Source of the DNA: Roridomyces roridus | Taxonomy: Eukaryota > Basidiomycota > Agaricomycetes > Agaricales > Mycenaceae | DNA length: 64,000 nt | Assembly: GCA_029378245.1 (NCBI GenBank) | Contig: JARKIF010000082.1 | Coordinates: 1 to 64,000 of the forward strand | Reading direction: 5' to 3' | Part shown: one piece after another, positions 9,343-58,362 of the stretch | Numbering within the stretch: the first letter of the stretch is position 1 | Layout: every line of letters starts with the position of its first letter | Position numbers and translations under genes: made by a program | The notes under the pieces: generated by a model | The model's input: only the letters and a program-made list of their open reading frames with translations | Databases searched by the model: none | Told to the model about the DNA's origin: nothing

Positions 9343-9755
9343 AACGTCGCTGACAAGAATAGCCTCAATCCGCCTCCAGTGATGTATCTTGACGATTTCG
9401 GCACGAAAAAGCGCGTTTATTGAGCCAAATTTTCGCTGACAAGACCTATCCGAGTCTAAGAAAAATTGTGGGAGTTGGCCAATTGGCATGCACGTCCAGA
9501 AATGCTCTGCTCACTGTCGTTCGGCGCATGGCAACCAGCCAATTTCACAGGAGTTTCACGATGTAGAAAGGGGGCATTGGAAAAAATCTGTCGGGGTTTA
9601 TTTTCAAGGTCCTGCGTTACACTTTTCAGAATACTTGTCTGCAGAAGCTGCGCGGTCTGCACGCAGAGAACAGGCTGGGAGACTCAACAAAGGGTGTGTT
9701 TGATCCGAGTCGTACAAGCAAAGAGTCGGGACACAGCCACAAATATTCCCTGTTT

Positions 9756-12700
9756 ATGAGCGACGGCCACCGGAGGTTATTCCTCACGCTCCCCCCGATG
9801 GCTGCTGAAGGCATCCCTCTTCGTCGTTCCAGTCGCCGCAAAAGCGGCTCTTCTGGCTCCGAGTACCACCAGGACGACTCGTCTCATCATGAAGAGATGC
9901 TACAATACGAGGAGGAGCCACCAAAGGAGATCATCACCACACGGCACGGGAGACGCGTAGTAAAGCATTCATATGCAGAGACGAGCGGCGACGATGCTCC
10001 TGGAGATCCTGCTGGGCTCTTTGACGATGGCCAGGAGGTCGCCGTCCATGCCCCACCATCCATGTCGAATTCGGACGAGGACGACCAACAACCGAGGCGG
10101 TATTCGACGCGTCGCAGAACGACCAACACTCTCTCGGGTTTCATCGTTCCCAGCGACGAGGACAAGCCCCGGTACGAGATGCGCACACGAGTCAAGACCA
10201 AACGACCCCAGCCCAACGGCAACAGCACCGTAACCGCACCGAAACGCAGCACTGGCCCTTCCCAGCGCTCTCAGCGTTATGATCGACGGAATAAGCAGGA
10301 GAACGAGGACATGTACTCGCCAGGGACGCAGCGCACTTCTTCCCCAGACACCCACCCTGACTCGGATGCCGATGCCGAGGGCGAACTCGATAACCTGGTC
10401 GAGCCTGAGCCCGAGGAAGAAGAAGAGGAGGAGGACAATCGGCCGTACGCATTGCGGCAGCGACAGAAAATCAACTACGCCATCCCTCCGCCACTCGAAG
10501 AAATGCCGCGGCCACCACCCCCTGCTCGTCCTGCCCCGTCTCGCAAACGGACGCGCACTGGACCTGGTTGGAGTGCCAGTGGTGCTGAGCTTGGACGCTG
10601 GATGGGTATGGGTGGACCAGCAGATGACTCGGACTCGGACAACCCTGCCAATGGCGTGCCCCGCACCCCTCGCAAGCCCGTCGCCATGGGCTTTGCATCC
10701 ACGCCGTCCAATATGGGCAATCTAGGCCTCGGAAAAGTTGGCGACGCAGCGTTGGCAGACGCAGACCCACTGGGCGTCAATGCCAATGTTACCTTTGACG
10801 AGGTCGGCGGGCTCGACGACCACATCCACGCTCTCAAAGAGATGACGCTCCTGCCCCTACTCTACCCCGAAGTGTTCCAGCAATTCCGTGTTACCCCGCC
10901 CCGCGGTGTCCTCTTCCACGGACCCCCTGGAACGGGAAAGACCCTCCTCGCACGCGCTCTAGCTGCCTCCTGTCGCACCAACGGCCGCCAAATCACCTTT
11001 TTCATGCGCAAAGGCGCCGATATCCTCTCAAAATGGGTTGGAGAGGCCGAACGGCAGCTACGTCTGCTCTTTGACGAAGCCCGGGCACACCAGCCAAGCA
11101 TCATCTTTTTTGACGAGATTGACGGCCTCGCACCCGTGCGTTCGTCCAAGCAAGATCAGATCCACGCGTCGATAGTCGCGACTTTACTCGCTCTCATGGA
11201 TGGGATGGACGGTCGTGGTAGCGTGGTGGTCATTGGCGCGACGAATCGACCGGATGCGCTCGATCCTGCTTTGAGGCGTCCTGGGCGGTTTGATCGTGAG
11301 TTTTACTTTGGACTGCCTGGGGCAGAGGCGAGAGAGCGAATTTTGTCGATCATGACGCGTGGGTGGAAGGGTTGGGGCGAGGAAGATGGTGGGCCGGAGC
11401 GACTCAAGGGGTTGGCATCGCTCACCAAGGGCTATGGTGGTGCGGATTTGAGGGTGCGTTGTCGAGTATTTTTTATTCTACTCCTGCTTACCTTTTTCAG
11501 GCCCTTTGTACAGAAGCATCGCTCAACGCAGTACAGCGCCGGTACCCTCAGATTTACAAGACCACGGAACGACTGCTCCTCAAGCCCGACACGATTGAGG
11601 TTGGATTGCGAGATTTTATGATTTCAATTAAAAGTGGGTTTTCAAATGGTGCAGCTAACAAATTCTGATATGTTACAGAGATCGTCCCAGCCGCTGCGCG
11701 TTCATCGTCCTCGGTGGCAGCTCCTTTACCGCAGCAGCTCACCCCGTTGCTCGGTGATGCCCTCGAGCGCGTCAAAGCGGCGATTTCACTTGTACTGCCA
11801 ATGGACAAGAAGCTTTCCGCGTTGGAGGAGGCCGAGTTTGAGGATCCTGGAGGGGAGAGCGGGGCCTTGGAACGCGAGCTTATGATGCAGGGTACGTTGT
11901 GAATTTCTTCTTGGCCCGTCATTTTTTTGACACGTGATACAGCAATGTCATCCATGCGCGTCTATCGCCCACGAGTAGTGCTGTACGGCGCGTCGGGAAT
12001 GGGGCAGACTTTTGTTGGTGCAGCAGCGCTGCATCATCTCGAGGGATATCACGTGCAGAGTCTCGAGCTTGGAGCGCTTCTGAGCGATTCTACGAGGGTA
12101 AGACGCTCGTTTGATGTACATTTCGACTTGGTCCTTATTTTGCCACGCAGACGCCAGAAGCGGCGATTGTCCAACTTTTCGTGGAGGCCAAGCGTCATGC
12201 ACCCGCGGTGGTGTATATTCCGGCGCTCCGTGGATGGTGCGCGGCTGTCTCTGAGACGGCCCGCGCCACGGTCCGTGCGATGCTTGATACGCTTGCACCA
12301 TCAGATCCAGTTCTCTTGCTCGCCGTGGTTGATGGGCACTTTGCGGACTTGCCGCGGGATGTCCGGGCTTGGTTTGGTGTCGGCGGTGGTGGGCGTGTTG
12401 AGCTGAGAACACCGACTTTTGAGGCGCGAAATGCGTTCTTTGCGGGTGTCATAAAGGATGCTCGCCGCCCACCAAATGAGTTTGCTGATGGGATGCCGAG
12501 ACGGAAGCGGATTCTCGAGGAGTTGCCGATTGCGCCGCCGTTGGAGCCGAGGAAGCCGTCTGCAGCGGAGTTGGCGGTGCAAGACGAGAATGATCAGAGG
12601 GTTATTGCGTTGCTCAAGTATCGGCTTGAGCCGATCTTGACGCAGCTGAAGAGGAAGTTTAAGAGGTTCACGAAGCGGGCTACGGTGAGTAATCATATAC

Positions 12701-39490: not shown

Positions 39491-39793
39491 GTGACAGATG
39501 CCTCTCCACATCAAGCCAAACTATGCCCTCAGACTGAGATCCAGCAGTGAATCGGCAGTTAGACGCGGGTTAGGTTAGGTTAGGTTAGGTTTGGTGCACC
39601 CCTAAACAAATGACATCCCCCCCGCGGCTTCGTCTGTGAGTGGAAGAACTCGTAATCCACCGTGAATGGGCGGTTAGGGGCAATATCCGCTGTGAATGGT
39701 GGTTAGGGGCATCATCCAATGGGAATGACAGCATCAGATCAGGGCTGGTCAAATAGGGTAGTAGTGGCATCAAATAAAGCAACCAGTATGGTT

Positions 39794-39875
39794 CTGTAGT
39801 GTAGCAGTAAGCAGTCATTCCTAATATAGTAATCCCTACCCTAGAGGTCTGGGGTTCAATTCAGCCTGCTGGCAG
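39794..39875 (+). other. Second, weaker tRNA-like segment
   Basis: TAGTGTAGCAGTAAGCAG resembles an A box and GGTCTGGGGTTCAATTC about 35 bp later holds a B box. Orientation is opposite to the segment at 39411-39490, so the two point outward toward opposite ends of the 777 bp element. Confidence 0.35.
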
Positions 39876-41051
39876 CTATTTTGCCCTGCTGTGGCTGGGT
39901 GCAATTCATTTAGCAAGGCTGTGACAGGGTACAATGCAATGTGGGCACACTGTGGCTGGGTTGTCAAGCTGTGGCCACAATTAAATGTACCCCCCAGGCA
40001 TGACAGGGTACATTGCCTATGTGGTACAGCTACACCTCCAGCAACGCGGGCCAAGTGGGATCTGCAGTCGCACGAATTTGGACCTTGCGTTTAGACAAGG
40101 ATGGTATTACCTTACGCTACGAGGACGACATTTCCGGCATCCTTTTCCTGTCATCCCGCCTTTTCTCCTACAATGATTTCTTTTCCGCCATTTCGGACCT
40201 CCAAGTTCCATGGAACAAGAAAAAGTGCGGCACATCCTTCGAAGACGACTTTGTCTCTATCGGTTTCACCTGGTTGTTTTCCAAGAAGACAGTCGGGCTG
40301 CCCGAGGAGAAACGTCTGAAATATCTGGCGCGTTTGGATAGAGTGCTCGTTGGGGGCATGGTTACCAGACGGGACCTGATGAAGGTCCACGGCACTCTTG
40401 TGCATGTTTGTTTCGTCTACGAGAGGGGCGACTCGCACCTTCCCTCGATATCGAATGCCTTCAAATTCTACGCCAACGACGATGCTGGCCGGTTCCTTAC
40501 CAGAACCACGCGTGACGAATTGGAATGGTGGAGGGATTGTCTAGCAGTGCCCAGCTTCACCCGCCCTTTGCGTGTGCTCCCGCCGCTCCAGGATATCGGC
40601 ATATATGTCGACGCTTCGACATCTTGGGGCATTGGGGTATGTCTGGGCGAGAAATGGTTCGCGCTGCGTTTGAAGGTGGGCGTAACATGCGAGATCGGGT
40701 GGCTTGAGGCCGTGGCGATTGAGGTGGCGATTATGTTGTTGGCGCAGGAGGGTTTCCGCAACGCCCATTTGCGCATCCGTTCTGATAATTTTGGCGCTAT
40801 CGGAGCGCATGAGAAAGGCCGCAGCTCGAACGATGCACTCAATCGTTGCGTTCGACGATCGAGGGAGATTCAATTACTCCATAATATCGTTCCCAATTTC
40901 CTCTACATTGCTTCGGCAGAGAACCCCGCAGATTCATTATCTCGTGGTACATTACCAGACACTCCTCCTTTACGCCGTTCTTTCGATTTGCCATTAGAAG
41001 TAGCCAGAGTTTTATGTGATCATCTTTGAATTTTTGATCTCGTTTGCATCC

Positions 41052-41778
41052 ATGTCACCTTCGCAGCTGCCCGCACGACACCTCCAGTCGGATTTTCGCC
41101 CATCCACGGCCAGATCTCGCTTCTTCAGTAATCCCCTTTTAAAGCAGTCCGACGATTGTCCCATCCAGTCAACACGAGTCGACAAACTCGCTTCAGTCTC
41201 GTCGCAGACGGTTTCCACACCACACCTTTCGGACAATCTAGACAACGGCACAGCCGAGCGTTCCCAAGCTACGGTTTCCCAATCGGGCTACGCACACCCC
41301 CACATCTCGTCCACGACACCGTCTCTCGACGATTTGGAATACGCGCGGGACGTTTCTGCCGGCGCATACGCTTTGGCGTTCCCTTCCATTCACAAAGCCC
41401 GTCGCCCCAAGGCGGGAAATGAGGTCCTCCCCTCCCCATTTCGCCCTCACGTTCCTGCCGCAGCTCGTCTTCTCGCGTGGACCTCACCATACGGGCTGGC
41501 CAAAGTCAGTGATCACCGCTACCTCCCGGCGAGCGACAAAGCTCGCGTGTTGGCAGAGATGACCAACGCATTGGCACCAACGACACGCTCAACCTACGCT
41601 GCGGGGCTGATGCGGTTCACGCAGTATTGCGATTCACGTCGTATACCGGAGACCTTACGCACACCGGCCGATCCTCTTTTGCTGGCTTGCTGGATTGCCG
41701 ATTCCATCGGGTCGCATGGTTTGAAGAGCGCCAAGGGATGGCTGGCTGGTCTCGCCTACTTTCACGCCCTCAATTTTG
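41052..41778 (+). pseudogene. Tyrosine recombinase, N-terminal part
   Basis: MSPSQLPARHLQSDFRPSTA opens the retroelement integrase. The first 130 residues are low complexity; then the SAM-like core-binding domain: LAPTTRSTYAAGLMRFTQYC, RTPADPLLLACWIADSIGS and GLKSAKGWLAGLAYFHALNF. The frame ends abruptly at the 15.8 kb insertion; the catalytic half is at 57575-58362. The ATG at 41052 sits just after the RNase H stop region; an upstream in-frame ATG at 41016 overlaps the RNase H end. Confidence 0.85.
41773..41778 (+). repeat. Target-site duplication, left (ATTTTG)
   Basis: ATTTTG directly before TATGACTG of the large transposon; the same six bases follow its right end at 57569-57574. The codon for the Ala after HALNF is split exactly here and completed at 57575. 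Confidence 0.88.
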
Positions 41779-42075
41779 TATGACTGTGTTTACTGGACAA
41801 AATGCAAATGCACACCAATGCGCACTAATGCACGGCATGCTGAGGGATGCACCAGAGTGCAATGGCGTGCATCGACATGCAATGGTGTGCTGACCCATGC
41901 AAAAGCGTAATTTGACCTTGTTTCGAGGCTGCATTTGGACTGTGCTGGACCTGCACTGGCTGCCACTGCACGGCGGATCTGTGCAGTGGAAATACAGATG
42001 CATCACCCTGCATCAGCACTGCATTGGCTATCATGCCTCTGCATGGCTGCACCGTGCAATGTCGTGCTGTTCATC
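41779..42075. repeat. Left terminal and subterminal repeats
   Basis: After the TIR, about 280 bp are crowded with ATGCA, TGCAATG and CATGCA in both orientations (for example 41801, 41829, 41846, 41870-41885, 42000, 42055). Clustered short motifs of this kind in the subterminal part of large DNA transposons usually serve as transposase binding sites. Confidence 0.7.
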
Positions 42076-42340
42076 AATTTCCTTTCTGGGCTCAGAGTTT
42101 TGGTACAATTTCTCCCATATCCGGATTTGGTGGCCGTACTTATACCACTTAACAACCTCTGCCTCATCCTTACAATTGACAAAATATATTTCTCTGTTGA
42201 GACAACCCATACGCCGACCCGAGTGTGAAGACACCCCTTAAAAGCCACTCAAAGAACACAATATCCAGCAAGGAGTCGGAGGTTCCTATTTGGGGTGATC
42301 CGGCTTTTGATTCTGTCCGCCATCTTCTCCAAGTCTGCGG

Positions 42341-44148
42341 ATGCCTGACCCGCTTTTCAACATACGACACAGCTTCACTCTTTTAGACCAACGCGTCCGG
42401 ACCGCCCTCCGAACCCAGCTCGGTGATGCCCCGCGCCTCCGTGCTCAGATCGATGATTGTGCCCGCTTTCTATCGTCAGCTGAGCAGGTCTGCAAACGCT
42501 TCTCTCGTCCGACTTGAACGGCTCACTGATTGTATGAACTAAAGCATGCAGCACTCTTCTCCCCTGCTGAATTCACCCATCTCCGGACCAACATCGCGAC
42601 CATGACCCGCGCCTTGGAGGAAGCGATGAATCAATCTGCAGATCCACTCACGGTTCCCATGCTCTCTGTTACAGAGGAACCCCCGCCTGGCCGACGCAAG
42701 GTGGGCCGACCCGCCAAGAATATCAACAAAACATTCCTTGAGGGTGCGCTGCAGCTCCGTGGGCCAACTGGGATTGCTCGCTCCCTGAATTGCCATCCGC
42801 GTACGGTCCGACGCTACGCTCTAAAACACGGACTTGCCACCCCAGGGCCACCGGTATACCAAGACACGTACATCGAAAACGGGGAGCCCCTCCGTGTGTG
42901 GCAGTCCACTCGCCCCACCATCGCAGCTATCAGCGACATGCCAGACGACTTGGATGCACAAGTCGCAGATATCCTACACCTATTCCCTCATTTTGGTCGG
43001 ACCATGATTTCCGGTGCCCTTCTTGCACGCGGTTTCCGTGTTCCTGAAGATCGAATCCGAGCGTCATATCAACGTGTCCATGGAGTGCCCCGCCGTTTTG
43101 GAGACCGGACCATCCAGCGCAGGGTTTATTCCGTTCCAGGGGTAAATTCTCTGTGGCACCACGATGGACAGCATGGTCAGTTCCTCAAGTTTTCTTTGTA
43201 TGAGCTAAACACTCACGAATGGTAGCGCTTATCCGCTGGAAACTTGTGACTCACGCTTTCATTGATGGCAAGTCGAGATTTGTCACTGGTGCCCGAGTGA
43301 GCAACAACAATCGCGGTGCTACTGTTCTCGCTTTGTTTGAGTGCGCGATTGGTCTCCATGGGCTTCCCAGCCGTGTCCGTGGTGATCACGGGACTGAGAA
43401 TATTCGTGTCGCCCAGAGAATGGAAGAGCTGCGGGGCCCTAACCGGGGATCATATATCTGGGGGCGGTGAGTGTCCTATTCAAATACACACTTCGGACCT
43501 GAAAGATTGGTTAGATCGGTTCACAACATCCGCATCGAACGCCTTTGGGTGGATTTCACCCGTGGCATTGCCAGCAAGTGGGTCGACTTCTTCTTTGAGC
43601 TTGAGCTCTACTATGGCCTTTCCAACGACAACCCTAGCCATATCTGGCTGCTTCACCATTTGTTTTTGGAGAAAATCAATGAGGAGGTGGATGAGTGGGT
43701 CGAGGCGTGGAATTCGCACAAAGTGGCGTTGGAAGGGGAGGGTCGTCGCAGTCCCCGGGACATGTTTACGTTCGGACTTTTGGAGCAGGGTCCACGAGGG
43801 CTGTCCACGGCTCTTTTCGAGCAGGAGGAGGCAGCATATGCCCACATCGATGATTTCGGTATTGATTGGCAGGCTCAAAACAACCCCCAGCTTATCGGAC
43901 ACCTTGCTACCAACAATGACCAACCATGGGCTGCCCATGACCCATTTGCAACATTTGCCACCCCCGAGACCATGGCCGAGGTAATTGTTGAGCCACCTGA
44001 AGGCCCATTGTCCGCCGACTTTGTGGCGGATTTGGATGCCCAGCTTGCGGAGCTCGTTGATCTTTCTTCGCAGGATATGGGTGTGCGCAAGCTTGTTTGG
44101 CGGGAGGCTCTGGCAATCTGTAACTCTTTCTACGAGAATGACGACTAG
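42341..44148 (+). CDS. DDE integrase-core transposase
   Basis: Four exons. Exon 1 from MPDPLFNIRHSFTLL (42341) ends near 42487. Exon 2 (42545-43162) carries a basic HTH-like part (GRRKVGRPAKNINKTFLEGA then GIARSLNCHPRTVRRYALKH) and the first catalytic Asp in LWHHDGQHG. Exon 3 (about 43226-43467) has IRWKLVTHAFIDGKSRFVTG and the second Asp in RVRGDHGTENI. Exon 4 begins RSVHNIRIERLWVDF, giving the catalytic Glu, then LFLEKINEEVDEWVEAWNSH. So D, D and E are all present with integrase spacing. No stop or frameshift. Homologous integrase-core proteins with WHxDGxH and SVHNxRIERLW are, from memory, widespread in mushrooms and fish. It is the obvious mobiliser of the 15.8 kb element. Confidence 0.85.
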
Positions 44149-44210
44149 CATCACAATCCATTGCAAATTCAAAGCGCGTGCCATCAGATCTTATCCATTT
44201 TTTTTTGTCC

Positions 44211-46046
44211 ATGTCTGCCGACCCCTCCTACCATCCTGGTCACAGCACAAGTCTCCAACAGCTTCCACCCCGGGAACCTTCGACCCGTATAATTACTCCA
44301 ACCCAGGACCCCGCCATGCAGGCCACCCCCTTGACGGACCGCACTCGCACTCCGCTCATTCATCAAAGCAGACTCGTAAACGGAACCTTGCCCCTTCACC
44401 AAGATGTAGAGAATAGCGCCTCGGGGGTCGCTTTCCACCCCTCGCTGATGTCTCGAGAACCTCCTAATAATCCAAGCCGCCTGCTGCGCGGGCAATTTGG
44501 AGCGGACATTTCCCCTGCTCAGGAGACTGCAGAGCAGCAGACCACGGCTCAGGAGCCCGCTGAGGCTACTCAGGAGCCTATCGCTCAGGAGCAGGACAAC
44601 GTTTCTGCACCCTTGGTCCTGGACACAGGCAGAGAGTACGGTCAGACCGCCCTTTTCCTCCCAGACACCTCTGAGAATGAGGACGAACAAGGTGTGTCTT
44701 TTTGTGTCAAGTGTTGCAAACAATTGTGCTGACTGAAACACTATTTAGCACCCCTGGAGTCTCCACCACCCCTCGTCCAGTCCAGTGACCGTCGTCGGCG
44801 ACCGAGATCCCGTGGACGTAAGCCACATTCTCCTCCTAGGCGTACTCAGTAAAAATCTGACTGTATTTGCCAAGCTCAACGGATTGTCCTCGAAGGTCAG
44901 GAAGACAGCGAGTTCCAGAAAGCCCTCCAGCAAATTGCCTCAGAGCATGGGATTCATTATCAAGACCCGTCCGTGCCATCCCCAGAGGAGGCTCATAAGC
45001 TACAAGCCGCCCTTGTTTTCGTCGGGTTGATCATCGCCCGTCCGGTTGTGCATCTCTGCATCCTCGACCTTCCAGCAACACCCACCATCAGCGATCTCAT
45101 CCAAAAATTCCGTTCGGCTTCACCCTTGTTCTGCCATGCGGTGGGAAAAATCACCAGGGGCTCCATGGCATTGGCTGTATCGCAGATGCCACTGCGTCCG
45201 GACAGCGACTTCCTGGGCGACTATCAGACGGGCCATCAGGACATTGGCATTTTCGCACCTGCTGAGATTCTCCAAGCCTCCTCCTTCAGCACTACGATCG
45301 TTCCCCCCGCCTTTCGTGATGCTCAGGAGACCAAAGACCTCCTTGCTTCTAAAAATCTTCCGCCCGGCACGCCTTGCTACGTTATGTATCTTACACATAT
45401 GGTAAGTCTCTCAATTTGCGTTGTCGATAGGAAACTCTGAGGCTCATACCTTGTCCAGAATGCGAATGTGGCCCAGGTTTCTCTGCCCCTGACTTTTGCG
45501 TCTACCCAAACTCCAACAAGCACCCTTCCGGCAACGTCCACTGTCTACACATATCTGAGCAGTCGTTTCGGCGATGTCAAAGAAGTGCAGACTCGTGTTC
45601 AGGCGGGTGTTTTGGGCGCGGCATACAAAGGCCTCCAGTTCACACGTGCTGTTTTTGAGGTTACGACGGCGCTCGGCATGGACTGGTCCTCGACCGGACT
45701 CCCCACACCACCTGCCGTCGATGTCGAGGGCGGCCTATCTGTTGGTTGGGAGCAGGTTGCTGAATGGTGCCCAGGGTGCCCGTCGCTCAGCACATTCCGC
45801 AATTGGCGCCGGATCTTCATGAATTGCCACAGCGCATACATGACACTGTGTAGTGTACAGGAACGACGTCACAGCGTAGCAGAAGAGCTCAAGACACAGG
45901 CAGAGCTCTTGGGTGAGCTTGTGGCCGGTCTGCCTCGCAAAGATCATGCCAGAGTGCCTCCCGAGTATCGGGCGCTGGGATCACAGACATGGGAGCAATG
46001 GGAGAAGCACGCAAAGACGGTTTTGGATTACTACCAGACGGTCTAG
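44211..46046 (+). CDS. Transposon-encoded protein B, unknown
   Basis: Starts MSADPSYHPGHSTSLQQLPP, only 62 bp after the transposase stop and on the same strand. The first 160 residues are Pro/Gln/Glu-rich with a repeated QE-P motif (AQETAEQQ, AQEPAEATQEP, AQEQD). A short basic segment (SSDRRRRPRSRG) follows an intron starting near 44690. After a further intron (about 44820-44875) comes a globular part: EFQKALQQIASEHGIHYQDP, KLQAALVFVGLIIARPVVHL, ISDLIQKFRSASPLFCHAVG, LTHM-intron-NANVAQVSLPLTF, and VEVT-like AVFEVTTALGMDWSS, ending with a helical region (ERRHSVAEELKTQAELLGEL) at 46046. About 530 residues. I recognise no family. Linkage to the transposase suggests an accessory transposition or regulatory protein; this is inference. 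Confidence 0.6.
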
Positions 46047-46211
46047 TTCAGATAATCATATTATGTGGTAAAAACATGAAGATAAATGGATGAGAACCAA
46101 GCGAGATGTAGAACAGACATAGTGGTAGCAATATACAATTACAAGTGATCGCACTCTACATTATTCGATTCCGTCTCTCTCTCTCGATCCCACTGTTTCT
46201 TTGCATTCAGA

Positions 46212-49054
46212 CTACAAATCTCCCACTCCATCCTCACTGTCTAAGAATACCACCGCGCTCTCCCTATTCGGCATGTCGGTTAGAGTGAAAGTGACACCAA
46301 GTACACTCACCTAGCCTCGATAATTGCCTTGAAGACGGATCTGTCAACGCAGGGAGGAATTGGCCATTTGTCGTAATTGCTCTCGTTTTCACCAGCTTTC
46401 CACCCGACCGTCTTCTCAAACTCTTTGCGCGCTCTCTCTGCCAAATCTTCCTTTCCACACTTTGCTGCGAAAATGCGTTGCCACCGGCCAATTTTGCAGA
46501 GCAGTTGCTCGACAAAGATGGCCCCAAAGTCGACAAGATCCTTGTCTTTCTCCGACAGATGATGATCGAGCCAGGCATACACGCAGATGAACGCAGCGCG
46601 AACGGAAGACGGCGAGGCATTGCGGGGCAGGTTGAAGCCAAGCAGCTGCAAGCCACGAAACGCGCCATAGCCTTTGTGAAGGTGTATCCATTGGGCCATG
46701 TCGTCCGGAGATGGCGGCGATGCGACACCTGCCAGCACCAAATTGTTGGCAAACTGCAAGGCGCCAAGCCCACTGGCGAATCCAACAAGTCCACTCTTCA
46801 CAATCCAATGCAGTACGCTATCCCACCTAACTCTGGGTGCGTCCGAGGTTGATGGGTCCTTGCCAGAAAGCGTCCCCAAAAGCGCACTGTAGCTGCCCTG
46901 CAGCTTTGCGTCAAACATGGGCTCGTATTTCTCCCGTATTGTCAGCGTCCTGCGCTTCCTGGTGCCGGGAATGGATATGCTCGGATGAACGCTGTACAAC
47001 GTATTGGCAGTGCCGTATATGTTCATATTATCGAATTTCATTTTCACAAGCAGGTTCTGCTGTTTCGCTTCCTCGGACTCGAAAGTGTCCACGCAATCTT
47101 GCAACTTCTGGAAATGCATTCTGCCCGCCCGCTGCTTGATTTGACCGAGGAATTGTTGCGTGGCATAGCCTTGACCCGTGCTCATGAACGCAAGTAGGCT
47201 GGACATCCCCGTCTTTGTCGTGAGTAGCTCGAATGGAAGTACGTCTCGGAGCAGCTTGAAACCCTGAAGCTTGGCACGGATGGGATTCATGTGGTCCGGG
47301 TCGTGGTAGCCAGGTGTTCCGCCTGTTGTCGGATGCAAAGCTTGGAGAAGGCGGCGATACACTGTGTCGGGATTAGCGGGTGTGGCATGGGAGTGCTCCT
47401 CCCGCTGTTGAGCGAGTGCCTCGCGAACGACAGCAGCAACTATACCAAAAGAAGGATTTCTGGGTAGAAGGGAATCGAGGGTTGGAGCGACGTCTGGGAG
47501 CTGCCTGGTGCGTGCCTTCGTCCTGCCCTTCCCAGCCGCAGTAGCATTGATCAAGGTCTCGGGCAGGAGCAGCGCCTGTGGATCCTCCCAAATCTCATCC
47601 GAGATGGGCACACCAAGGTTAAGTGTCAGCAACCCCTTGTGCACCGAGTCTCCAAGGTTCTGGCAAACCTCCCTGAGATCGGGCTCTTTGACAAGCACCT
47701 GAGTGATATAGAGGTCCAGAACCGACATGGCCTGCCCCTCGTCCTTTTCCACTGCTGCACAAAAATGTTTGTAGCGGTCGAGACTTGTCGGAAACATTGT
47801 TGTCGGCTGGCGCAAAAAATCTTTCATCCGCTGTGCTGCAAAAATACCATCCCCTAGAATATCGGCCAACCGGAGCAGAATAGCGCCTCGTGTGATGCAG
47901 CGCTCTCGAAGGGACACTAGGTCTGGTTGGCACCTTGAACCGTTCAACAGCTTGTCGAGGCGTGACATTGGGCGCAGGAGAAGATGCTCATCCCAGAGCC
48001 TGCAAAGCAGATTTGCTGCAACATCATACACGGCCTGCGAGTCAGGGGAGTCAAACCGATTCTTGAGATTTATGGGCTGCAGTCGAATCTCGGCAGTACG
48101 AGCAGAGGCAGGAATTAATCCCCAGAGATCTGCCGGAATACTGCTGTAACGGTTCGCCTCAACCGGAATGGTCGACTCTACGGCACCAGACACTGGATCA
48201 TCTGCAGCTGGAGGCGGTTGTGGTGCCACTTTGGGATCAGGGTGCTTCTTCGTCTTTGGCTTTCGGCCAGGCTTCTTCTTCTTCTTGGCCCTTGCTGCTA
48301 TTTGTGCCCGCGCAGACTCCTGCACAAATGCGACAATATGCGCCACCATCGGCGCCAACTTTGGAAACTGGTCAGCCAATTCCGTTGGCTTCTCCTTCTG
48401 AAGCTCGACCAATTGTGCGGCAAGGGATGGGCTGAGATACACCAGCCACTCATACGCTGCCACCAGTGACCGACAGACCTGGGCCTGTGCGCCGCGAGAT
48501 ACAAGGTCCTGTATGCCGCTCTCCACCTCCAGCACCGATACCGAGTTGCCTATGTCGCAGATGCAGGCAAAGGTAAGATCGGCCAAGTGCGGGTTCCATC
48601 CCGTCGAGTCAGAAGACCCCGATGTCGAGTGCAGAGCCAAATGCAATTGCGTGCTGAGTTGATTTTGGCGGTTGATTTGATCGACCAAGCTGGACGCAAT
48701 CTCGCGTGGAGCGACATTGGCAAGGTTAATCTCCTTGGGATTGACCAGGACTTGTCGGAGACCCTTCACCTGCTCGTATTCGTTGAGGAGAGCGGACGAA
48801 TTCAGGAGCGCGTCAATGTATTTCGTGTTCGGTTGGGCTGCAACTGCCTTGCCGATTTCGACGTTGGGAGGTGTGTGGTCGACTTTCTTTTTGCGCTTGC
48901 GGACAAGATCAATGCCATGGTCACTGTTGAATTTATCAAATAATTCAGAGCTCTCAGAGTCCCTAGCCGCGGTGGTCAGCTTTGCTAAATGTGGCCTACA
49001 ATCGATCAACACATACTTGAATGCAGCGGCCGGCTCCCAAGTGTTCTCCGACAA
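46212..49054 (-). CDS. Transposon-encoded protein C, AT-hook-like, unknown
   Basis: One large exon (49054 to about 46307, MSENTWEPAAAFKYVLIDCR) and a short last exon (RESAVVFLDSEDGVGDL) ending at 46212. About 930 residues, mostly alpha-helical. Near residues 255-275 a basic tract KKKKKPGRKPKTKKHPDPK resembles an AT-hook (core GRKP) and suggests minor-groove DNA binding in the nucleus. The C-terminal third contains hydrophobic glycine-rich stretches (SGLVGFASGLGALQFANNLV) and a conserved-looking end (WLDHHLSEKDKDLVDFGAIF then QLLCKIGRWQRIFAAKCG). No catalytic motif is evident. It starts 68 bp after the stop of gene D on the same strand. No known family recognised. Confidence 0.65.
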
Positions 49055-49122
49055 GTCATAACCCCCCCATTGGACTAACCAACGTCGTTCTCCATTCTAT
49101 CAAGGAATCAGTTCTTTTTTCG

Positions 49123-51841
49123 TCAGCCGGCTTGAATCGTCCTCACCGAAATTTTGCTTGCCAAGATGGCTTTGACAACGAACACGTTGGAGTCGAGCGC
49201 TCTCGAGTCCTCCATCTCCGCCTCCTTGTCCTTTTCGGAATCGCTCGCGTCCTCCTCCTCCGAAGAGGTGTAAACCGGGGTCGATCGCCTCTTCTCTCCC
49301 TTCTTCCTCTGCTTCAGAGGCGGCTCTTCCATCTCTGGGTTGTCGGCCAGCTCCCGGCGACGTTTCCTGGTCAATGGGCCTGTAGTGGAATTGGGCAAAG
49401 GAGTGTCGGCAGTAACGGTGGACATGACGTCCGGCAGCATATTTGTAATGGATGCAGAGGAGTCGGAGGTCGACGCTTCCACATCTTGGATACATCCACT
49501 GGGATTCGAGGTACACGTCAAGTGCTATGTAGACATTTAGAATTGATCGGTAACAAGTGTGCGTATGAAAACATACCTCTGTTGCCTGCGCTGCTGGTGC
49601 TCCTGGTTTGGAAAATGTTATCCGAGGCACCAAGCTACGTTCGGTAGGTATCGGGGGAAGATCTTTGAATCCAGCAACCTTTTGTGCAATGGACTGCTGG
49701 CTGGCAAGGAACTCAGACTTTGTGAGTCCAAGAGAATAAGTGGCGATTATGCCACGCCAGTAGAAGAGATAGCGGCGATACACCGTCATCAAGGCGTACG
49801 TGTTATCATCGTCGATGTCAAAGGGGGCAGGTTCCAGAGAATGGATAGCGCCTTTTTCATCTCCGTAGGTGATGTGATGCAGTAGCTCATCTGTGCTGAG
49901 TTTCAAATTCAGCCCGGAGAGCGTTATCCAGTTTTTCATTGCCAGAACCATCTCTAACCCGAGGCGATTGGAACGACTGTAGTTGTCGCCAAGAATTGTG
50001 TTCCCATGGGCAACAAAGTATCTGCGTTTGTCGATACGCGGGTCTGCAGGCGTGTACAGGAAGCGGAGGCTGGGAGTGTAGAGCATTTGGGTACTGCGAG
50101 TTGTCGCAGTCATGCTCAGATACAGCACATATCCGCAGCGGACCTGAGGCCCAAACTTCTTGAACAGCTCCTGTGCGTCTTCCATACTGACGATTGAGTC
50201 CTGGAGCTGCTTGACATAGGTGGGCACGGTCCCGGAATGAATATCGTGGCCCCTAAAAGACGCAAACAAGATGTATTCGTCCGTCTCTCGAATGTAAAGG
50301 GCTGAGCGCATGAATAGGAAAGGCCCCATGTCGCTCCCATTGGCAAGTCGAAAGAGCAAGACAAAAAGTGTGAGTGGGAGTGGATCGTCTTGAAAGTCGC
50401 CGTGGGGTTTTCCTTGGGGACCAATTGATTTTCCAAGCTTGCCTGCCCGCCATCGCTCGCTCGAAGCATACTCCTTCAGATCGATGAAGTTTCGCTCGGA
50501 GAAGGAAACGCTATCCGTCTCAGACAGGTCAAAATCGAGAACGTTGGCAGCGGAAGAGCTGTTTAGTTGACAGCTCGTCGGCCCAGGCTCTAGCCCGCCA
50601 AAGGCAAGCACGTTGTTCTCCAGACCTTGGAACCGAATCATCTCCCACTCGAAACGAGACACCGATAGCGGCATAATCAATTGGTAGAGCTCATGCAGAA
50701 TCTCGAGGAGCTCCTTGATCTGTGCAGCCGCCTCTGGAGTGTTTGTCTGAACGGCCGGTGCAAAATGGCCGCGACCCTCGCCCTCGCCATGAGTCAAAGC
50801 GAGGTTAAACGAGCCGTCGCCTTTCAACTCGTGCTTGACGGATTTGGACCGGAGATTCAGCTGGAGACCTTCCAGCTCAAAGACTGCGGGCATGCCAGGA
50901 TCTGTGTCTGACGCCTCTCTGCCCCAAGTGAGCTCGAGCAGGCGGGGCATGAGAGCGGCCACCCTCTTCCCCTCTTGGTACTCTCCCAGCGTCGTGAGAG
51001 TGTGAACACAGGCCACAGTAAGGGCGGAATGGGGATCGCCGTCAAGATGATGGACGAAGGGTATGCCGGCTGGCATTCTGATCATGCCCGGGATGGGTGA
51101 AGACACGAACGCCCGAGAGTTGAGATCAAAACGAGCCGGGGTAACGTCTGGGGGCATCCGGACTTGGAGCATATGCTCCTTGTCTTCGGCTCGGGTGGCA
51201 TGGTGGTAGTCAGCGGCATATCTCCACCCGCGTCGATATGAGTTGTCGATTGTCGTGTTCAAGGCGTACTTGGATGCCTGAGGATACCAGCCGACCTCAG
51301 GTTTAGGTGCAGCTGTACAAGGCTGCAGGACACTGGGCTCTGGTTTCCCGGAGCGGGAGAGAGATTGGGTATCCCAAATGAAACGATCGACAGGGGGTTT
51401 TAATACATTGACACCTCCCAGCGGCAAGCCATATAAGCGGGGCTCATTGGGGTTGGCGTACGCTGCGGCCTCAAAGTAAGTGCCCATGACAAGGAACAAA
51501 GCCCAGCAAACGCACCTTCGTCAACTGCTTCAGATTCGACAGGAGTGTCTAAGAACTCAAAGCGGGGGCGGCCGCGGCAGTGCTCAGATCTTGAATCTTC
51601 GGGAGCTAGAGTAAGCAAAGTATATATTGAGCCAAGAAACAACATTACCCAGAGACCCAGGTGGTTGGGAGTCGATATCCATGCCTTCGGCCTTCTCAGT
51701 CATATGAGCTTGGGCTGCAGCTGCAGCTGCTTGCAGCGGGCGCGTGACCTCGGGTGGCAAGCCAGGGTTGCTGAGTAGGCCGTTGATCTGGGTCAGGACA
51801 TTCTCGAGTGGAGGTTGAGACGATAACTCATTTGGTTCCAT
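49123..51841 (-). CDS. Transposon-encoded protein D with nuclear localisation signal
   Basis: Four exons. Exon 1 MEPNELSSQPPLENVLTQIN (51841) with an Ala-rich helix; exon 2 APEDSRSEHCRGRPRFEFLD; exon 3 is long (about 51470-49575) and encodes a globular 630-residue region with ANPNEPRLYGLPLGGVNVLK, IPFVHHLDGDPHSALTVACV, LEILHELYQLIMPLSVSRFE, FLFMRSALYIRETDEYILFA, YFVAHGNTILGDNYSRSNRL and ELLHHITYGDEKGAIHSLEP. Exon 4 (49530-49123) is disordered and carries a strong bipartite NLS (RKRRRELADNPEMEE then LKQRKKGEKRR) and an acidic serine-rich patch. About 870 residues. No motif of a polymerase, helicase or nuclease was identified. It forms a head-to-tail pair with gene C. Confidence 0.65.
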
Positions 51842-52059
51842 GGAGGCAAATCCAGGAGCCGAGCATACACAGCCACCGAGAAATATGTGTCCAGCTTACT
51901 TTACGATCAAACGGTTTCGTAGAGCAAGGGGACACATAATTTTATGGCTCAACAAGACCGGAAACTGCCCAATTTGAATACCGGGGACGAAATCTAAGAA
52001 GATTTCAAAACCTTCTGTCGGAACAAGGAGCCTGCTCATTGCTTGAGGATGAATCGAGT

Positions 52060-52329
52060 CTAAGAGTGAGTGATGATTGATCCGTTGATTCCTCTTTGCT
52101 CTCGACCACCACTGTCATCTTCTCTCAGACACTCTTGTGCCTTGGCGTCTTCCTCAGCAGGGCCTTTATAATGTCTCGGAATGTCCTTGTTTTTGAGGGA
52201 CCAGGTGTCCCAGTTGGGCTTGCCAGCAGATTCCTCAAACTTGGTCGGAACTAAATGAATTGCCACCCAAATTGCTTCATCCGAGACACCCCCACCACCG
52301 TTTCGACGCCCACAAGACGCTCCCATCAT
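52060..52329 (-). CDS. Possible small ORF at edge of tandem repeat
   Basis: Minus-strand frame whose part outside the repeat (about 52270-52060) looks coding: AIWVAIHLVPTKFEESAGKP, NWDTWSLKNKDIPRHYKGPA, EEDAKAQECLREDDSGG. The start lies within the tandem repeat. It may be the last exon of a gene otherwise lost or a separate short peptide. No family recognised. Confidence 0.25.
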   Translation of the reverse strand: MMGASCGRRNGGGGVSDEAIWVAIHLVPTKFEESAGKPNWDTWSLKNKDIPRHYKGPAEEDAKAQECLREDDSGGREQRGINGSIITHS

Positions 52330-53170
52330 TCGATACCGGCCCCGGAGTCATCTGCGCCCGCCGCCGCGGTCCATGTCCGCCACATCACACAATAAAGGTA
52401 TGCTTCTCCAAATTATTCGTGTCTCCACTGTTTCTTACTCAAATCCCTTCATCCAAGACACCCCCACCACCCTCTCGATCCCCAGAACACGCTCCCATCA
52501 TTCGTCAAGGGTGAAGACGTCATCTGCGCTGGCCGCCGCCGTGACAGTCCACCACATCATACAATAGTCAAAATTGTTCGAATCTCCACCATTCCTTGCT
52601 CAAACCCCATCATCCGAGACACCCTCACCACCGTTTCGACGCCCACAAGACGCTCCCATCATTCGATACCGGCCCTGGAGTCATCTACGCCCGCCGCCGC
52701 GGTCCATGTCCGCCACATCACACAATAAAGGTATGCTTCTCCAAATTATTCGTGTCTCCACTGTTTCTTACTCAAATCCCTTCATCCAAGACACCCCCAC
52801 CACCCTCTCGATCCCCAGAACACGCTCCCATCATTCGTCAAGGGTGAAGACGTCATCTGCGCTCGCCGCCGCCGTCACTGTCTGCCACATCATACACTAA
52901 AGGTATGCTTTCTCAAAATTGCTTGTATCTCCACCGTTTCTTACTCAAATCCCTTCATCCAAGACACCTCCACCACCCTCTCGACCCCCAGAACACGCTC
53001 CCATCATTCGTCAAGGGTGACGACGTCATCTGCGCTCGCCGCCGCCGTCACTGTCTGCCACATCATACACTAAAGGTATGCTTTCTCAAAATTGCTTGTA
53101 TCTCCACCGTTTCTTACTCAAATCCCTTCATGCAAGACACCCTCAGGACCTTCTCAACGCCCACAATACA
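52268..53170. repeat. Tandem repeat, six units of about 170 bp
   Basis: Units begin near 52281, 52450, 52611, 52784, 52958 and 53131 with CATCCGAGACACCCCCACC or variants, and share CACGCTCCCATCATTCG, GTCATCTGCGC and CCGCCGCCG blocks. Units 1+2 and 3+4 form a higher-order dimer of about 335 bp with near identity (52268-52560 and 52600-52890). Each unit ends near AAAGGTATGC, which resembles a 5' splice site. It lies between the divergent starts/ends of genes D and F within the large transposon and no other gene is visible in 51842-53407. Confidence 0.85.
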
Positions 53171-53407
53171 CCGCTGCCATTCAATCTCGGCGCCGACGTC
53201 ATCGGCACCGGCCACCGCCGTCACTGTTCGCTGGACCACTCCCCATGCATTTTCAAATATCCACCCACAGGTGCCTGGAGCAAGAAGTGTGGTGTATTGA
53301 ATCGGATAATATATTTATAGGAGAGTTTTTTTGTGTGTTCATCTACAAACGATTATAGTCCCCGCCTTTGAGGGAGGTGATTTTTGACATCCACACATCG
53401 AATGCAG

Positions 53408-56400
53408 TCACGGTTGTGACATCGTCCAAAGAACAGGGCTCCAAGAGGAGGTTGCTGAGCCACGGGTTAATGCATATCTCGACGGTGCTGCTGCATGTGT
53501 GCCAGGCAACCGTGGGGCTCTGCTCGGTCGGACCGCTGCGATCGAAAGAGAGACAGATCTGGGCGGGGCTGAGCTTCCTTTACTATCAATACCTGGAGCC
53601 ACGACACTCACAATGAAGGAATCCGAAGAGCAAGGGGGGAGCAGAGGGCAATCGGTGATGGAATTGACAAAGGTCGTGCCGCGTATGCTAGGACTCTTCT
53701 TGTGCTTCCGATACGACTCGTCCGAGACGATACCTTCCTGGAGACGAGAGGAACCATCAGAATTAACGACAAGACTGCTTCTGAGCTCTCTGGGGAACCC
53801 GCAGCCCGACAACCAACGGCGGAAGCGCCAGATAAACAGATTAGCAAAGACCTGTGCAAGCTGGCTACGGTCGCTGGAGGAGGCCCAGGTGAAATGAGTG
53901 CGTTCAATGACATCTTTGGCGCCGCAAACCATCCTATCGTACAGCCCGAGGAGAATGTGTCGGATCTTGAGACTAGTGCCCAGAAACTATGGATTTGCTA
54001 GGTCAGCATGGATGCGAACGCAGATTGAAAGACCGACATCGGTGAGTTTCATGGGGTGCTTCAGTGGCATTCGCACACCGTCGGAGAGAGAGCGGAATTC
54101 TGCGTCGTCCCACGGGTTTGCACATCCCGTGAAATAGAGTGCGACCAGCCTACGATGGAGTCCCTTTTGTTGGACCGCTGTGCGTGGCTTGGAGAAGATC
54201 TTAATCTACGGGAAGGTCAGTACGGATCGAGCATACTAAAAGGCCACACACGTCGACCTCCAAGAGGTGAACAGCCAACGCCAAGCCACGATGGCTCTCG
54301 TCCGCCTTCGGATTCTCTGTGTCCCCAGAGACCTTGAAAACTTGCTCGGGGCGAATGTCCCACCATGGCTTGAGAATCGTGGCAGTGGCAGGATCCAATC
54401 TTGCAATGAACGCCAGGCTGAGATTGTCCGCGTCGAGGCACTGGGAGTCATGGTGCAAGGTCATGTATATGATGATGGGGCAGATGGGAATGGCCCCTGT
54501 AGCGAGCTGAAGCATGGTGAGGATTGCGTAACGCCCGTCAATGTAGTATTGGTAGCAACGTTCAGTGCCCTCTATGAAAGACTGGCGGGGATCAAAGGTA
54601 GGTCGGTAGAATCTTCCACTGTCTGCCCATCGACTCTGCGCTTTGACATCTCTGGGATCTTTCACTCGGAGCTGGAGCGCTGCGAGAAAGTGAGCGCGCT
54701 CAGGACCATCCCCGGTCCCTGAGTTGGCAAGGTCGTCTGAGTTGATGCTGCCTTGGAATGAGTAACGCTGTTGCTAGGAAGTGGGGCTCGCTCACAGGAA
54801 GTATCGGCGCAAGGTGTGGAAGAATCCGGCCTCGGTGGGGATTTGGGCGCATATGACACCAGGCTCACGAGCAAAGGCAAAATCAGGGTCCTTGTGATGG
54901 CGGATAGCACTGAACAGAGTGCGAGCGATTGCCTCTAGGGAAGGGCCCGATACGGAGACAGCGACGCAGCCTTCGGTATCAATTTGGTCCAAGACCGTAT
55001 CTCGCCAGTCCATTAGCTCATCTCCATCGGCACGCTCCCAGGGTGCGATCTCTGGTAAGCGAACCTGTAGTGCCTCAGGGGATTGAGATCGACTTTTTGG
55101 CGAATGAGGAGCGAGATTGAGGGGCAGGGGACTCGGCCAAACTTCTGGGGAGTCGTTCGAGAGATCCTATGGACATGGTCAGGTCCCTTGCCAATAAGGC
55201 TTGCTGAAAACAGTTACAATCACAGAAGACTCGAGCGGCTGAACATCAGGAAGGTCAATATCGCTGAGCATGTCCGGTGCGATAATGGGAGAGTCGACAC
55301 GCCGGCGAGTATTGGGAGTGTCAAGGCTGCCAACCTCCTCCTGCATGCATGAGATTCAGGAGCAGGCAGATACAGGAGTGCTCACCAGCGACAAGGATCG
55401 TTCACGCCGTCTGCCAAGCGAGGAGGTGCAATCATCGAAGCAGTCCAGATCGTCGACCTGGGTAGGGTCGAACTTGCTCCATACATGCCATGGGAAGCAG
55501 CGGTGCTTCTGGAGCATTGGATACCGGTGCTGAAGCGGACCTCTAAGATTCTGGTACAACGGAGCTGCCGATGTACAGATGATGAGACGGAGCTGGCAGG
55601 AGTCTGAGATGCACACACCGATGAACATAAGGCTCTTGCGACCGTCCTCAGGGTGGTCTACGCCTTTGCACACATTGCGGAGGCGTTTCTCCGTGAATTG
55701 GTACTCGTAGAGTTGGGCAAACGTGAGCGGACGATTGACGTCTGTGCGCTTGTTCTTGAACTCCAGAATTCCCCAAGCGCGATTGTTGTATTTCGTATCG
55801 GGCTCTTGGCGCTGGGTAGGTGGCGCGATCGGAGTTTGGGCCCAAGTCAACTGATCATTGATCGTGTTGTCTACGATGGTGAAAACCGAAGGATCTTCCC
55901 CTGCAGTAGCATCGGAGGTAGGAATATCCAGGTCAAACCACAGGTTATAGGGCTTCAACGCGGCAACAAGCTTCTCCATGTCCTGCAGAGTGCGAAATCG
56001 GTAATCAGGGGAAGGGCTTTGTTCGTCCTCCCCGTCACCCTGCTGGGAGTCGGTCAGTACAAGACAGAGGAAGATCTCAGGGAAGGGCTCACACAGAAGG
56101 GGAGGAGGCCCACGCTATAGGTGTGGTGACTCGGAGTGTCAGGTGCCTTCTTCGTCTTTGTTCTGCCTGGCTGAGATACGCTACTAGGCTCTGATGCAAA
56201 AACATTTCTGCCAGGGATGGAGCCGCCCCTACCACCTCTACCCCCTCCTCGGCCACCACGAACACTGGTCCCACTCGGACCGCCGCCACGACCGCGAGCG
56301 GTACCACGACCACGACCACTGACCGTACCACCACGGCTGTGTGGACGGATTGAATTATGCTGTGGGAGATTGGCAAGACGGCTTTGATCGCGCTGCTCCA

Positions 56401-57316
56401 AAACAGAGGCCCCGGACCTGCCAGCCGGAAGACTCTCCCACGTGTCGGGAATTGCGGGCGGCATGTAGTGTTCATTTGCAGGAGGCGCTTGAATGACGTC
56501 TCGGTAGATCTGGGCCGGCGGAGGGAGGACCTGAGATCCGTACGAAAATCGACTTGCTGGTTGGGAGGGCCTGGAGAGGTGTCAGTTTTTTTTTGATAGC
56601 CCACGAGAATGGTGACATACAGCGGAGGATCGGTCGCGTGGGTGCTAGCAGTGCTGGAAGGAAATGAAGGATTGGTGGACTGTGCTGCTCTGTGACAAGG
56701 TTTGAGATATTAAAAGTTACGAATTGAAGAAGGACATACAGAAGGTGATTTGCCGACAGCAGGTCGGCTGGTACATCGTGGTGTAGCCAGGGCTCCCTAC
56801 ACCCGGCACAAGGTGTGTCGTGCCTCCATGGGGCGGTGGTGGCCTGCAGGCAGCATAAGCCCGGCTCGCTCTAGCAGATACAAAAAAGTGATTGCGCACC
56901 GAGAGAAATCCTCCACATTGCTTGGAAGGAATACCAGCACGCCGCATATTGTTGTTTGGATCGCTGGGATTGTTCTGAGTAGCAAGGATGTGGGCGGTGT
57001 AGGGATGACCACAATTGCAGACATCTTGGAGACTTGGCGGCTGGAATTTGCGCTGAGCAAACCCAGGTCATATCTACACGGCAAAAAGCTCACGGTATAG
57101 CAAAAGCTCTCCCCCGAACCAAAGGTGGATGAGGTACAGCGACAATTTGAATGGAGACATCTCCCGCGCGGGGGGAATGCCATCTTGGACGGGAGCGCTG
57201 GTGGTCGATTGAGATGACAAGTCCACGACTCCTATACAGTTGTCCAGAAAAGGCAAAAATCGTAGGAAATATTGGAAAATAAAAATTGGGTGCTGATGCA
57301 TTGGAGCTGCACACAT
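53408..57316 (-). CDS. Transposon-encoded protein F: Cys/His cluster, RG box, PD-(D/E)XK-like motif
   Basis: About twelve exons. Exon 1 (possible starts 57316, 57301, 57160) ends LIHLWFGGELLLY. Next comes a zinc-binding-like cluster VCNCGHPYTAH, then MRRAGIPSKQCGGFLSVRNH (about 57030-56900). A Pro/Ser linker leads to an RG box (about 56345-56220; for instance RGRGRGTARGRGGG). Then RFRTLQDMEKLVAALKPYNL, a region with EPDTKYNNRAWGILEFKNKR (about 55800-55740), which fits a PD-(D/E)XK nuclease core with PD, ExK and spacing of about 11, then HRCFPWHVWSKFDP. Later exons read DTVLDQIDTEGCVAVSVSGP, EGTERCYQYYIDGRYAILTM, ILKPWWDIRPEQVFKV and GLHRRLVALYFTGCANPWDD. The stop is near 53408. No exact family recognised. 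The nuclease call is tentative; the start lies in the right subterminal repeat. Confidence 0.55.
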
Positions 57317-57568
57317 GCTGGACTGATAGGGGTTGGGAAGCCGAAGAAGATCAAGAAGCACATGAATGCAGTGTCGTGTGTTGTACATGTATTGCATTGA
57401 TCCAAGGTGAATGCATTAGACTTCGAATCAATAACATCATGGGAAATATCTACTTTGCACGACTCTGCATGCTGTTGCATGTCATTGCACTGTTGTGCAT
57501 GCCCATGCATCCCTCAGCACAACTTGCATTACTGTGCACCTGCATTTTGTCCAAGAAACCCCGCCATA
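57290..57568. repeat. Right terminal and subterminal repeats
   Basis: Mirror of the left end: reversed, it starts TATGGCGGGGTTTCTTGG and continues into GCTGAGGGATGCA. ATGCA/TGCAT motifs recur at about 57295, 57365, 57412, 57466-57480, 57497-57515 and 57540. It overlaps the 5' end of gene F. Confidence 0.72.
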
Positions 57569-57574: not shown

Positions 57575-58362
57575 CACCATGGCATGGAGACGAAGCGTGT
57601 GTCAAGAAGGTCTTGCGTGCTGTGGACAAAGAGGGAAAATTCACACGTCCACCGCGGGGACCTGTATCCGAGCAGCATATGCAATGCATACGCAGCAATC
57701 TCGATATCTCTACACCCCGCGGTGCAGCTCTTTGGGCTCTTGCATGCGCAGCATTTTGGGGTTGTCGTCGTCTCGGGGAATTGACTATCGGGAAGCTGGA
57801 CGGTTTTGATGCATCACACGACGTCTCCCGTTCCTCATCGCTATCACGGTCTAATGCCAGCGGCCTTTCGGTAATAACTATTCACCTCCCTTGGACGAAA
57901 ACTACCGGATCTCGGGGTGGCTCTCTCATTCTGACGGCCACCAACGACAACCTTTGTCCCGTCGCAGCCCTCGATAATCATTTAATCATCAACCATTCTC
58001 CGCCTCCCGACTCCCCATTTTTCGCTTTCCGCGACGGCAGCTGCTGGCGCCCCGTCGTCAAGTCGACTTTTATCGAATTGATTGGCAACATATTCAGGGC
58101 CAACAAACTCGAGCAGGTGTTCGGCCACAGCTTCCGTATTGGTGGCTCGGTACATTTGCTTTGTATGGGCGTCGAACCTCAGATTGTCATGAAGATCGGC
58201 GGATGGTCCTCGAACTGTTTTCTCATATATTGGCGGCGGCTGGAAACAGTCATCCCAGTCGCCTTATCCAAAGCATGGGCTAACAAACAACAGACATTTT
58301 GTTCGGCCAATGGTATAGCAGACGAGATTGCATCTGAAATAGATTTCATTACAGCTCGTTGA
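57575..58362 (+). pseudogene. Tyrosine recombinase, catalytic part
   Basis: Continuation of the frame broken at 41778. Catalytic residues are visible: Arg I in FWGCRRLGELTIG (about 57755), HxxR in GHSFRIGGS (about 58125-58150), the His/Trp position in GGWSSN, and the nucleophile Tyr in FLIYWRR (about 58225). AALDNHL, PPPDSPFFAFRDG and the helical tail fit the YR of mushroom DIRS-like elements. The stop is at 58360-58362. All catalytic residues intact, so the loss of function comes only from the insertion. Confidence 0.85.

Follow-up and report, generated by a model that had tools for sequence, protein, structure and literature searches.

An IS3EU-type transposon of the mushroom Roridomyces roridus encodes a chromodomain protein with a likely dioxygenase-like domain

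In a 64,000-nucleotide stretch of the Roridomyces roridus genome (contig JARKIF010000082.1, positions 1 to 64,000 of the forward strand; hereafter the window), we find a real, complete and recently mobile DNA transposon of 15,790 bp. It carries a transposase gene, A, and three further genes, of which C encodes a large protein that combines a chromodomain with a domain likely to be dioxygenase-like. We read the element as an autonomous IS3EU-type transposon of Mycenaceae whose protein C would dock on silenced chromatin, oxidise methylated bases and so free the element, and we assign this reading a probability of roughly 0.6. Fungal transposons of this kind have been described only recently; what is new is that one of them combines a transposase with a dioxygenase-like chromodomain gene.

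The element, its copies and its relatives in the genome

Labels such as C1, C7 and C20 denote contigs of the host assembly (Roridomyces roridus, 90.8 Mb in 501 contigs). The limits of the window copy are as follows.

41779-57568: whole element, 15,790 bp, termini TATG..CATA; 57568 is the final element base
41773-41778, plus strand: left target-site duplication, ATTTTG, present once only at the uninterrupted paralogues on C78 and C35
57569-57574, plus strand: right target-site duplication, ATTTTG
41779-41820, plus strand: left terminal inverted repeat, starting TATGACTGTGTTTACTGGACAAAATGCA; the copies on C112 and C179 share this end
57527-57568, minus strand: right terminal inverted repeat, with the minus-strand start TATGGCGGGGTTTCTTGGACAAAATGCA; the copies on C112 and C179 share this end

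Read directly, the two terminal inverted repeats are identical at 33 of 42 bases. A second full copy of 16,452 bp lies on C112, flanked on both sides by AAAGAC, and a third of 18,627 bp on C179, flanked on both sides by TTGACC; both end at the same bases as the window element, and where they align with it in collinear blocks, identity is 98.7-99.8%. Because the three insertions carry different 6 bp duplications, they are insertions of one mobile unit. The original prediction, made from the letters of the window, had proposed a 15.8 kb element with both TATG ends and an ATTTTG duplication, and these limits stand exactly; it had looked for confirmation to recurrent copies that share the ends but differ in their 6 bp duplications, which C112 and C179 supply, and neither copy ends at other points. 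It had also described the restoration of the target, a tyrosine-recombinase frame, once the element and one duplicate are removed, as the uninterrupted paralogues on C78, C35 and C33 bear out: the first two match the left flank at 60 of 60 positions with a single ATTTTG, the third at 57 of 60. The interrupted target itself (window 40004-41779 and 57575-58362) has the look of a DIRS-like retroelement, with a reverse transcriptase/RNase H-like open reading frame recognised by eye, a weak Phage_integrase match (0.0066) and sister copies on C78, C35 and C33.

Simple exon-intron modelling of the window yielded four genes.

42341-44148, plus strand: gene A, DDE transposase of 550 residues; exons 42341-42487, 42545-43175, 43226-43466 and 43515-44148
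44316-46046, plus strand: gene B, orphan protein of about 498 residues; first two exons uncertain
46139-51841, minus strand: gene C, 1,783 residues; a likely dioxygenase-like domain and a chromodomain are joined to a long C-terminal domain, and the small final exon is uncertain
53343-57160, minus strand: gene D, about 1,020-1,037 residues; WHTC is invariant close to the C-terminus, and the 5′ exons are uncertain

The earlier count of five genes fell to four: two long minus-strand open reading frames together form the one chromodomain protein C, since its relatives are annotated as single proteins (P0003, 1,886 residues, from Roridomyces roridus, and P0006, 1,906 residues, from Mycena). In the C112 copy all four gene models are free of stops, and its C gene has a 48 bp in-frame insertion.

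By its sequence, A is a DD34E transposase of the IS3/IS481 group. It matches the Pfam family rva_4 (2.9e-60) and, far below the curated cut-offs, the NCBIfam models for IS481 (1.3e-9) and IS3 (0.0019). The predicted D, D and E are present as D256, D313 and E348, each kept in 96-97% of 107 relatives, which were picked by length among 120 listed of the 367 found overall. One transposase relative, P0126 from Favolaschia claudopus, is named nitrite transporter NirC in its source database, likely a misannotation. IS3EU elements have TA..TA ends and usually 6 bp duplications, as described by Kojima 2023 (PMC10045372). The present element has TATG..CATA at all three copies, 6 bp duplications at 3/3 and an IS3/IS481-type DDE domain, and the suspected IS3EU likeness is thus supported on termini, duplication and catalytic domain. 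The same paper describes the IS481EU elements, which, like the IS3EU/GingerRoot group, have an IS481/IS3-like DDE domain in common with the window element but differ from it in encoding a single protein and making duplications of about 4, 15 or 25 bp.

The genome contains many related ends. A pattern resembling the terminal inverted repeat, with up to 3 mismatches allowed, occurs at 60 genomic sites against 2 in a reversed control, and a second version at 133 against 2. Exact 6 bp duplications flank 11 of 13 end pairs (the three full copies and ten pairs chosen from the lists of these sites); the other two, on C7 and C113, have 5 bp. Eight of the ten chosen pairs span 0.7-2.7 kb and look non-autonomous by size, and C458a and C112b span 24.9 kb and 27 kb. 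On C458 a sister element stretches between 1543541 and 1568452 and has the duplication TCAAAG, and some sister families have one TTTG end instead of a TA end. C-like genes occur outside the three full copies at four loci (C1, C412, C334 and C21), all four within 10 kb of a transposase relative; the two genes converge on C334 and C21 and diverge on C1 and C412. D-like genes occur at three further loci and B at none, and transposase loci are far more numerous.

Some shorter relatives were seen in passing. The two 5 bp duplications, GAAGA and ATCCG, belong to a related family whose terminal inverted repeat starts TATAGGTGTCC (C7:88339-91072 and C113:303102-303833). At least 41 identical TTTGAGGGTCCTTGGTGGACAAAA ends occur among the matches listed, many with a TATGAAGGCCC end about 0.8 kb off; a short non-autonomous family whose two ends differ (TTTG and TATG) has apparently multiplied here in a recent burst. 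Another non-autonomous relative, of 972 bp (C29:69642-70613), has the duplication ATTTTG, as at the window element, and the C458 sister element contains an open reading frame resembling a long interspersed nuclear element, its start endonuclease-like by eye (L076 8448-9936, L028 2-892).

The chromodomain protein C and its neighbours B and D

The chromodomain of C is certain (Chromo, PF00385, 3.7e-8). Among the best 8,000 candidates scored we found 17 relatives, 3 from Roridomyces (the C179 copy included), 13 from Mycena and 1 from Marasmius, whose database names are hypothetical or chromo-domain proteins. A second domain of C carries an HxD..H motif with a downstream R, a pattern common across the wider dioxygenase superfamily.

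50138-50404, minus strand: HxD..H..R motif of C, with H at 50404-50402, D at 50398-50396, H at 50239-50237 and R at 50140-50138

When the window exon is aligned with 16 relatives, all but P0001, the C179 protein, H353, D355 and H408 are invariant in 17/17 rows, at identities down to 32%, and R441 is kept in at least 90%. The C458 sister element and the C20 locus have a different, diverged gene that shares the HxD..H..R motif with C. Aligned to C, the C458 gene scores 70 over the C-terminal part (shuffled maximum 26) and 34.8 over the dioxygenase-like part (shuffled maximum 22.5), with 0/100 shuffles as high in either case, and the pattern G..H-x-D..D..G-x-F..H-x-G..P..R is invariant across four C rows and the C458 and C20 pieces. 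The conserved motif suggests that C likely has a Fe(II)/2-oxoglutarate dioxygenase-like domain. A closer assignment to TET/JBP by sequence was tried and dropped, searches of Pfam, PHROGs, NCBIfam and the PDB all being negative; the PHROGs and NCBIfam searches of C returned no dioxygenase of any kind. The sole PF12851 match in the host genome, on C442 (E 0.1), is not the C gene, and nothing recognisable appears in the translated locus.

Purifying selection acts on C. The ratio of non-synonymous to synonymous substitution rates (dN/dS) in the C exon is 0.10 for the window copy against C334 or C21 (dS 3.5-3.7), 0.12-0.13 in four comparisons at intermediate distance and 0.20 in one of two very recent pairs; C1 and C412 are saturated and give no value.

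The original prediction had recognised no family in any accessory protein, which is still so for B and D and no longer so for C. B has no Pfam family, and its last two exons match only the three full copies in the host genome. D likewise has none, nor do its relatives, of which three were found: the C179 copy in this species and two proteins from Mycena sanguinolenta. Even at E up to 10, no alpha-kinase model matches A to D or the relatives of D. An HTC motif and a neighbouring pattern seen by eye suggested a HECT E3 ligase for D, an idea that profiles did not support: PF00632, searched up to E 10, finds nothing at the D locus, a PDB profile search of D gave no support either, and D aligned to one HECT gene of the host genome scores 22.1, no better than shuffles (maximum of 60, 22.2). 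Beside D lies a tandem array:

52268-53163, no strand: minisatellite with a unit of 173/333 bp, present in all three copies and flanked by the 5′ end of C on one side and the 3′ end of D on the other

The C458 sister element has an array with a 162 bp unit shortly past its own D-like gene (L052 3094-3420).

CpG transitions and periodic subterminal arrays

Private changes were counted over 14,873 sites aligned in the three full copies, excluding the minisatellite. In the window copy, C>T or G>A accounts for 21 of 23, and 19 of those 21 lie at CpG; the C112 copy has 26, with 17 of 20 such transitions at CpG; and the C179 copy has 94, which may include some from the common branch of the other two, with 20 of 33 at CpG. 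CpG accounts for 22% of C/G positions, giving binomial p values of 5e-11 (window), 4e-9 (C112) and 2e-6 (C179). The observed/expected ratio of CpG is 0.83 in the element against 1.03 and 1.06 in its flanks. Because the private C>T and G>A changes fall mostly at CpG, the element appears to be methylated.

Inside each terminus lies an array of short motifs that recur about every 10 bp.

41803-42098, plus strand: left subterminal array, TGC/TGCA about every 10 bp; comb score reached by 0/500 shuffles
57249-57544, minus strand: the weaker right subterminal array, with TGCA at intervals of about 10 bp; 0/500 shuffles at period 10

The period was examined at five ends, from four element families, that were located with 320 bp of sequence available, the C20, C24 and C112b ends falling outside this set. 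At each of the five the period-10 comb score exceeded all 500 shuffles; when shuffles were allowed the best of periods 5-13, 6/500 reached the right window end and none reached the other four. Ranked by period-10 score among 796 overlapping windows of the 64 kb, the left end is first and the right end tenth; seven of the top ten overlap the element ends, and the three outside are overlapping 320 bp windows at 39521-40000. By eye, the repeated motif varies with the family, being TGCA in the window element, AGATCTGG-like in C21, CAAGA-like in C458b and GTGG..CACGC-like in C458a. As a diagnostic mark the TGC array failed: the genome has 195 sites where four TGC follow one another at 10 bp spacing, a reversed control 57, and among the matches listed are unrelated 10 bp satellites as well as both ends of the copies on C112 and C179.

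Elsewhere in the window, an open reading frame at 9567-11618 has a strong AAA ATPase domain (1.1e-41) and is probably a host gene.

Proposed mechanism, alternatives and known systems

In the mechanism we propose, A would bind the ends and transpose the element through DDE-catalysed strand transfer, with cuts staggered by 6 bp. The host would mark the element by CpG methylation; the chromodomain of C would dock on the silenced chromatin, and its dioxygenase-like domain would oxidise methylated bases there, allowing the element to be transcribed and moved. The 10 bp-periodic arrays would probably serve A or another element protein as a binding platform. We infer that an anti-silencing role of C is likely.

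Several observations weigh against this proposal. No Tet_JBP (PF12851) or other dioxygenase match was found in Pfam for C or its relatives, and a profile of the C domain finds no dioxygenase, and no solved TET, in the PDB. In the C458 gene the R falls where the reading frame is cut off, making it a weak match. The second very recent pair of C exons has a dN/dS of 0.69, the C334 copy of the gene has two stops, and in the C179 copy both C and D are broken by insertions. Most transposase relatives in the host genome have no match to C or D. The DIRS-like copies show the CpG signature too, to a lesser or equal degree (CpG in 17/38, 7/9 and 42/128 transitions in three comparisons, unpolarised), so repeat methylation seems general in this genome; the signature in the element itself indicates that methylation was not fully prevented. 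A phased array, finally, is also compatible with plain transposase binding or nucleosome placement.

A more specific version of anti-silencing would be self-targeted, with the family-specific, helically phased 10 bp arrays of the two ends as an address, an element protein as its reader and a chromodomain-guided dioxygenase, outside the PU, AG and PE types, erasing the methylation of its own family only. Since the arrays differ between sister families of this genome, two of which also have the enzyme in another version, address and eraser would then co-evolve; we hold this version to be tentative and rather doubtful. VANDAL elements of Arabidopsis, a Mutator-like superfamily, offer no more than an analogy. 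Their protein VANC21 binds short arrayed motifs within its own elements, in the account of PMC5735166, and the idea of element-encoded anti-silencing, the family-specific short motifs and the dense non-coding arrays may be compared with ours. They differ in transposon superfamily and in that the account names no dioxygenase, and the binding protein of the arrays here is a predicted one.

About as doubtful is a plain multi-gene IS3EU element in which B, C and D would serve transposition itself, by synapsis of the ends, target choice or tethering to chromatin through the chromodomain, which would direct insertion, the dioxygenase-like fold being inactive or acting on proteins. Chromodomains direct insertion in some retrotransposon integrases, and that of C is beyond question; a C-like gene also lies near a transposase relative at C1, C412, C334 and C21, and C has no sequence-level match to DNA dioxygenases. 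The invariance of H, D and H in all 17 rows, at identities down to 32%, is however unexpected in a dead enzyme, and TET genes are a known cargo of fungal DNA transposons, as the main text of PMC12730594 reports. Less probable still is that B, C and D are captured host cargo on a transposon needing only A. The accessory genes do vary, C-like genes being found at four loci outside the three copies, D-like genes at three and B at none, but the relatives of C come only from Roridomyces, Mycena and Marasmius among the candidates scored, all four further C loci of this genome have a transposase relative within 10 kb, and C is under purifying selection. The idea that the locus is misassembled, or that host genes happen to cluster within a disrupted recombinase gene, has nothing positive in its favour save that the copies stem from one draft assembly of 501 contigs, and is refuted by three copies on three contigs with exact ends, different duplications and uninterrupted paralogues.

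The suggestion that such a system is described poorly or not at all holds in part. Kojima 2025 (PMC12730594) describes, in its main text, TET-bearing IS3EU elements in seven rust species (Pucciniales) and one truffle (Tuber indicum), all with an alpha-kinase gene; among the TET-bearing elements of Agaricomycotina that text names Kyakuja, Zisupton, EnSpm, Plavaka and Helitron2, and it lists no IS3EU and no chromodomain-fused gene there, its supplementary tables lying outside this scope. As characterised in that text, the rust and truffle elements resemble ours in their 6 bp duplications, their TA..TA termini and a dioxygenase-type gene placed between the transposase and a further gene running opposite to the transposase. 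Ours differs in its agaric host, in the type of its enzyme, the HxD protein C, in the fusion of C to a chromodomain and a long C-terminal domain, and in having no recognised alpha-kinase gene; the rust termini are TAYGG..CCRTA, from which the window element departs at the left with TATGA, its right end being CCATA. C has no Pfam Tet_JBP match, and the published IS3EU TET proteins were compared by their description only. The Agaricomycotina elements named above are likewise mushroom DNA transposons carrying dioxygenase genes, but with other transposases and duplications (7 bp in Kyakuja) and AG-type or HxE PE-type enzymes, as the main text gives them. In the open-access literature we found nothing on dioxygenase/chromodomain DNA transposons in Agaricomycetes, on Roridomyces roridus transposable elements, on HECT proteins with Zisupton or on a 10 bp subterminal periodicity in transposase binding.

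Protein C would add a diverged dioxygenase-like class that the searched databases list only as chromodomain or hypothetical proteins. If the proposed mechanism is true, a single transposon protein would unite chromatin docking with base oxidation, and would do so in a host that appears to methylate the element. Given a copy whose four genes look open, and uninterrupted targets beside it, a mushroom would then allow a direct test of whether TET-like cargo really releases a transposon from silencing.

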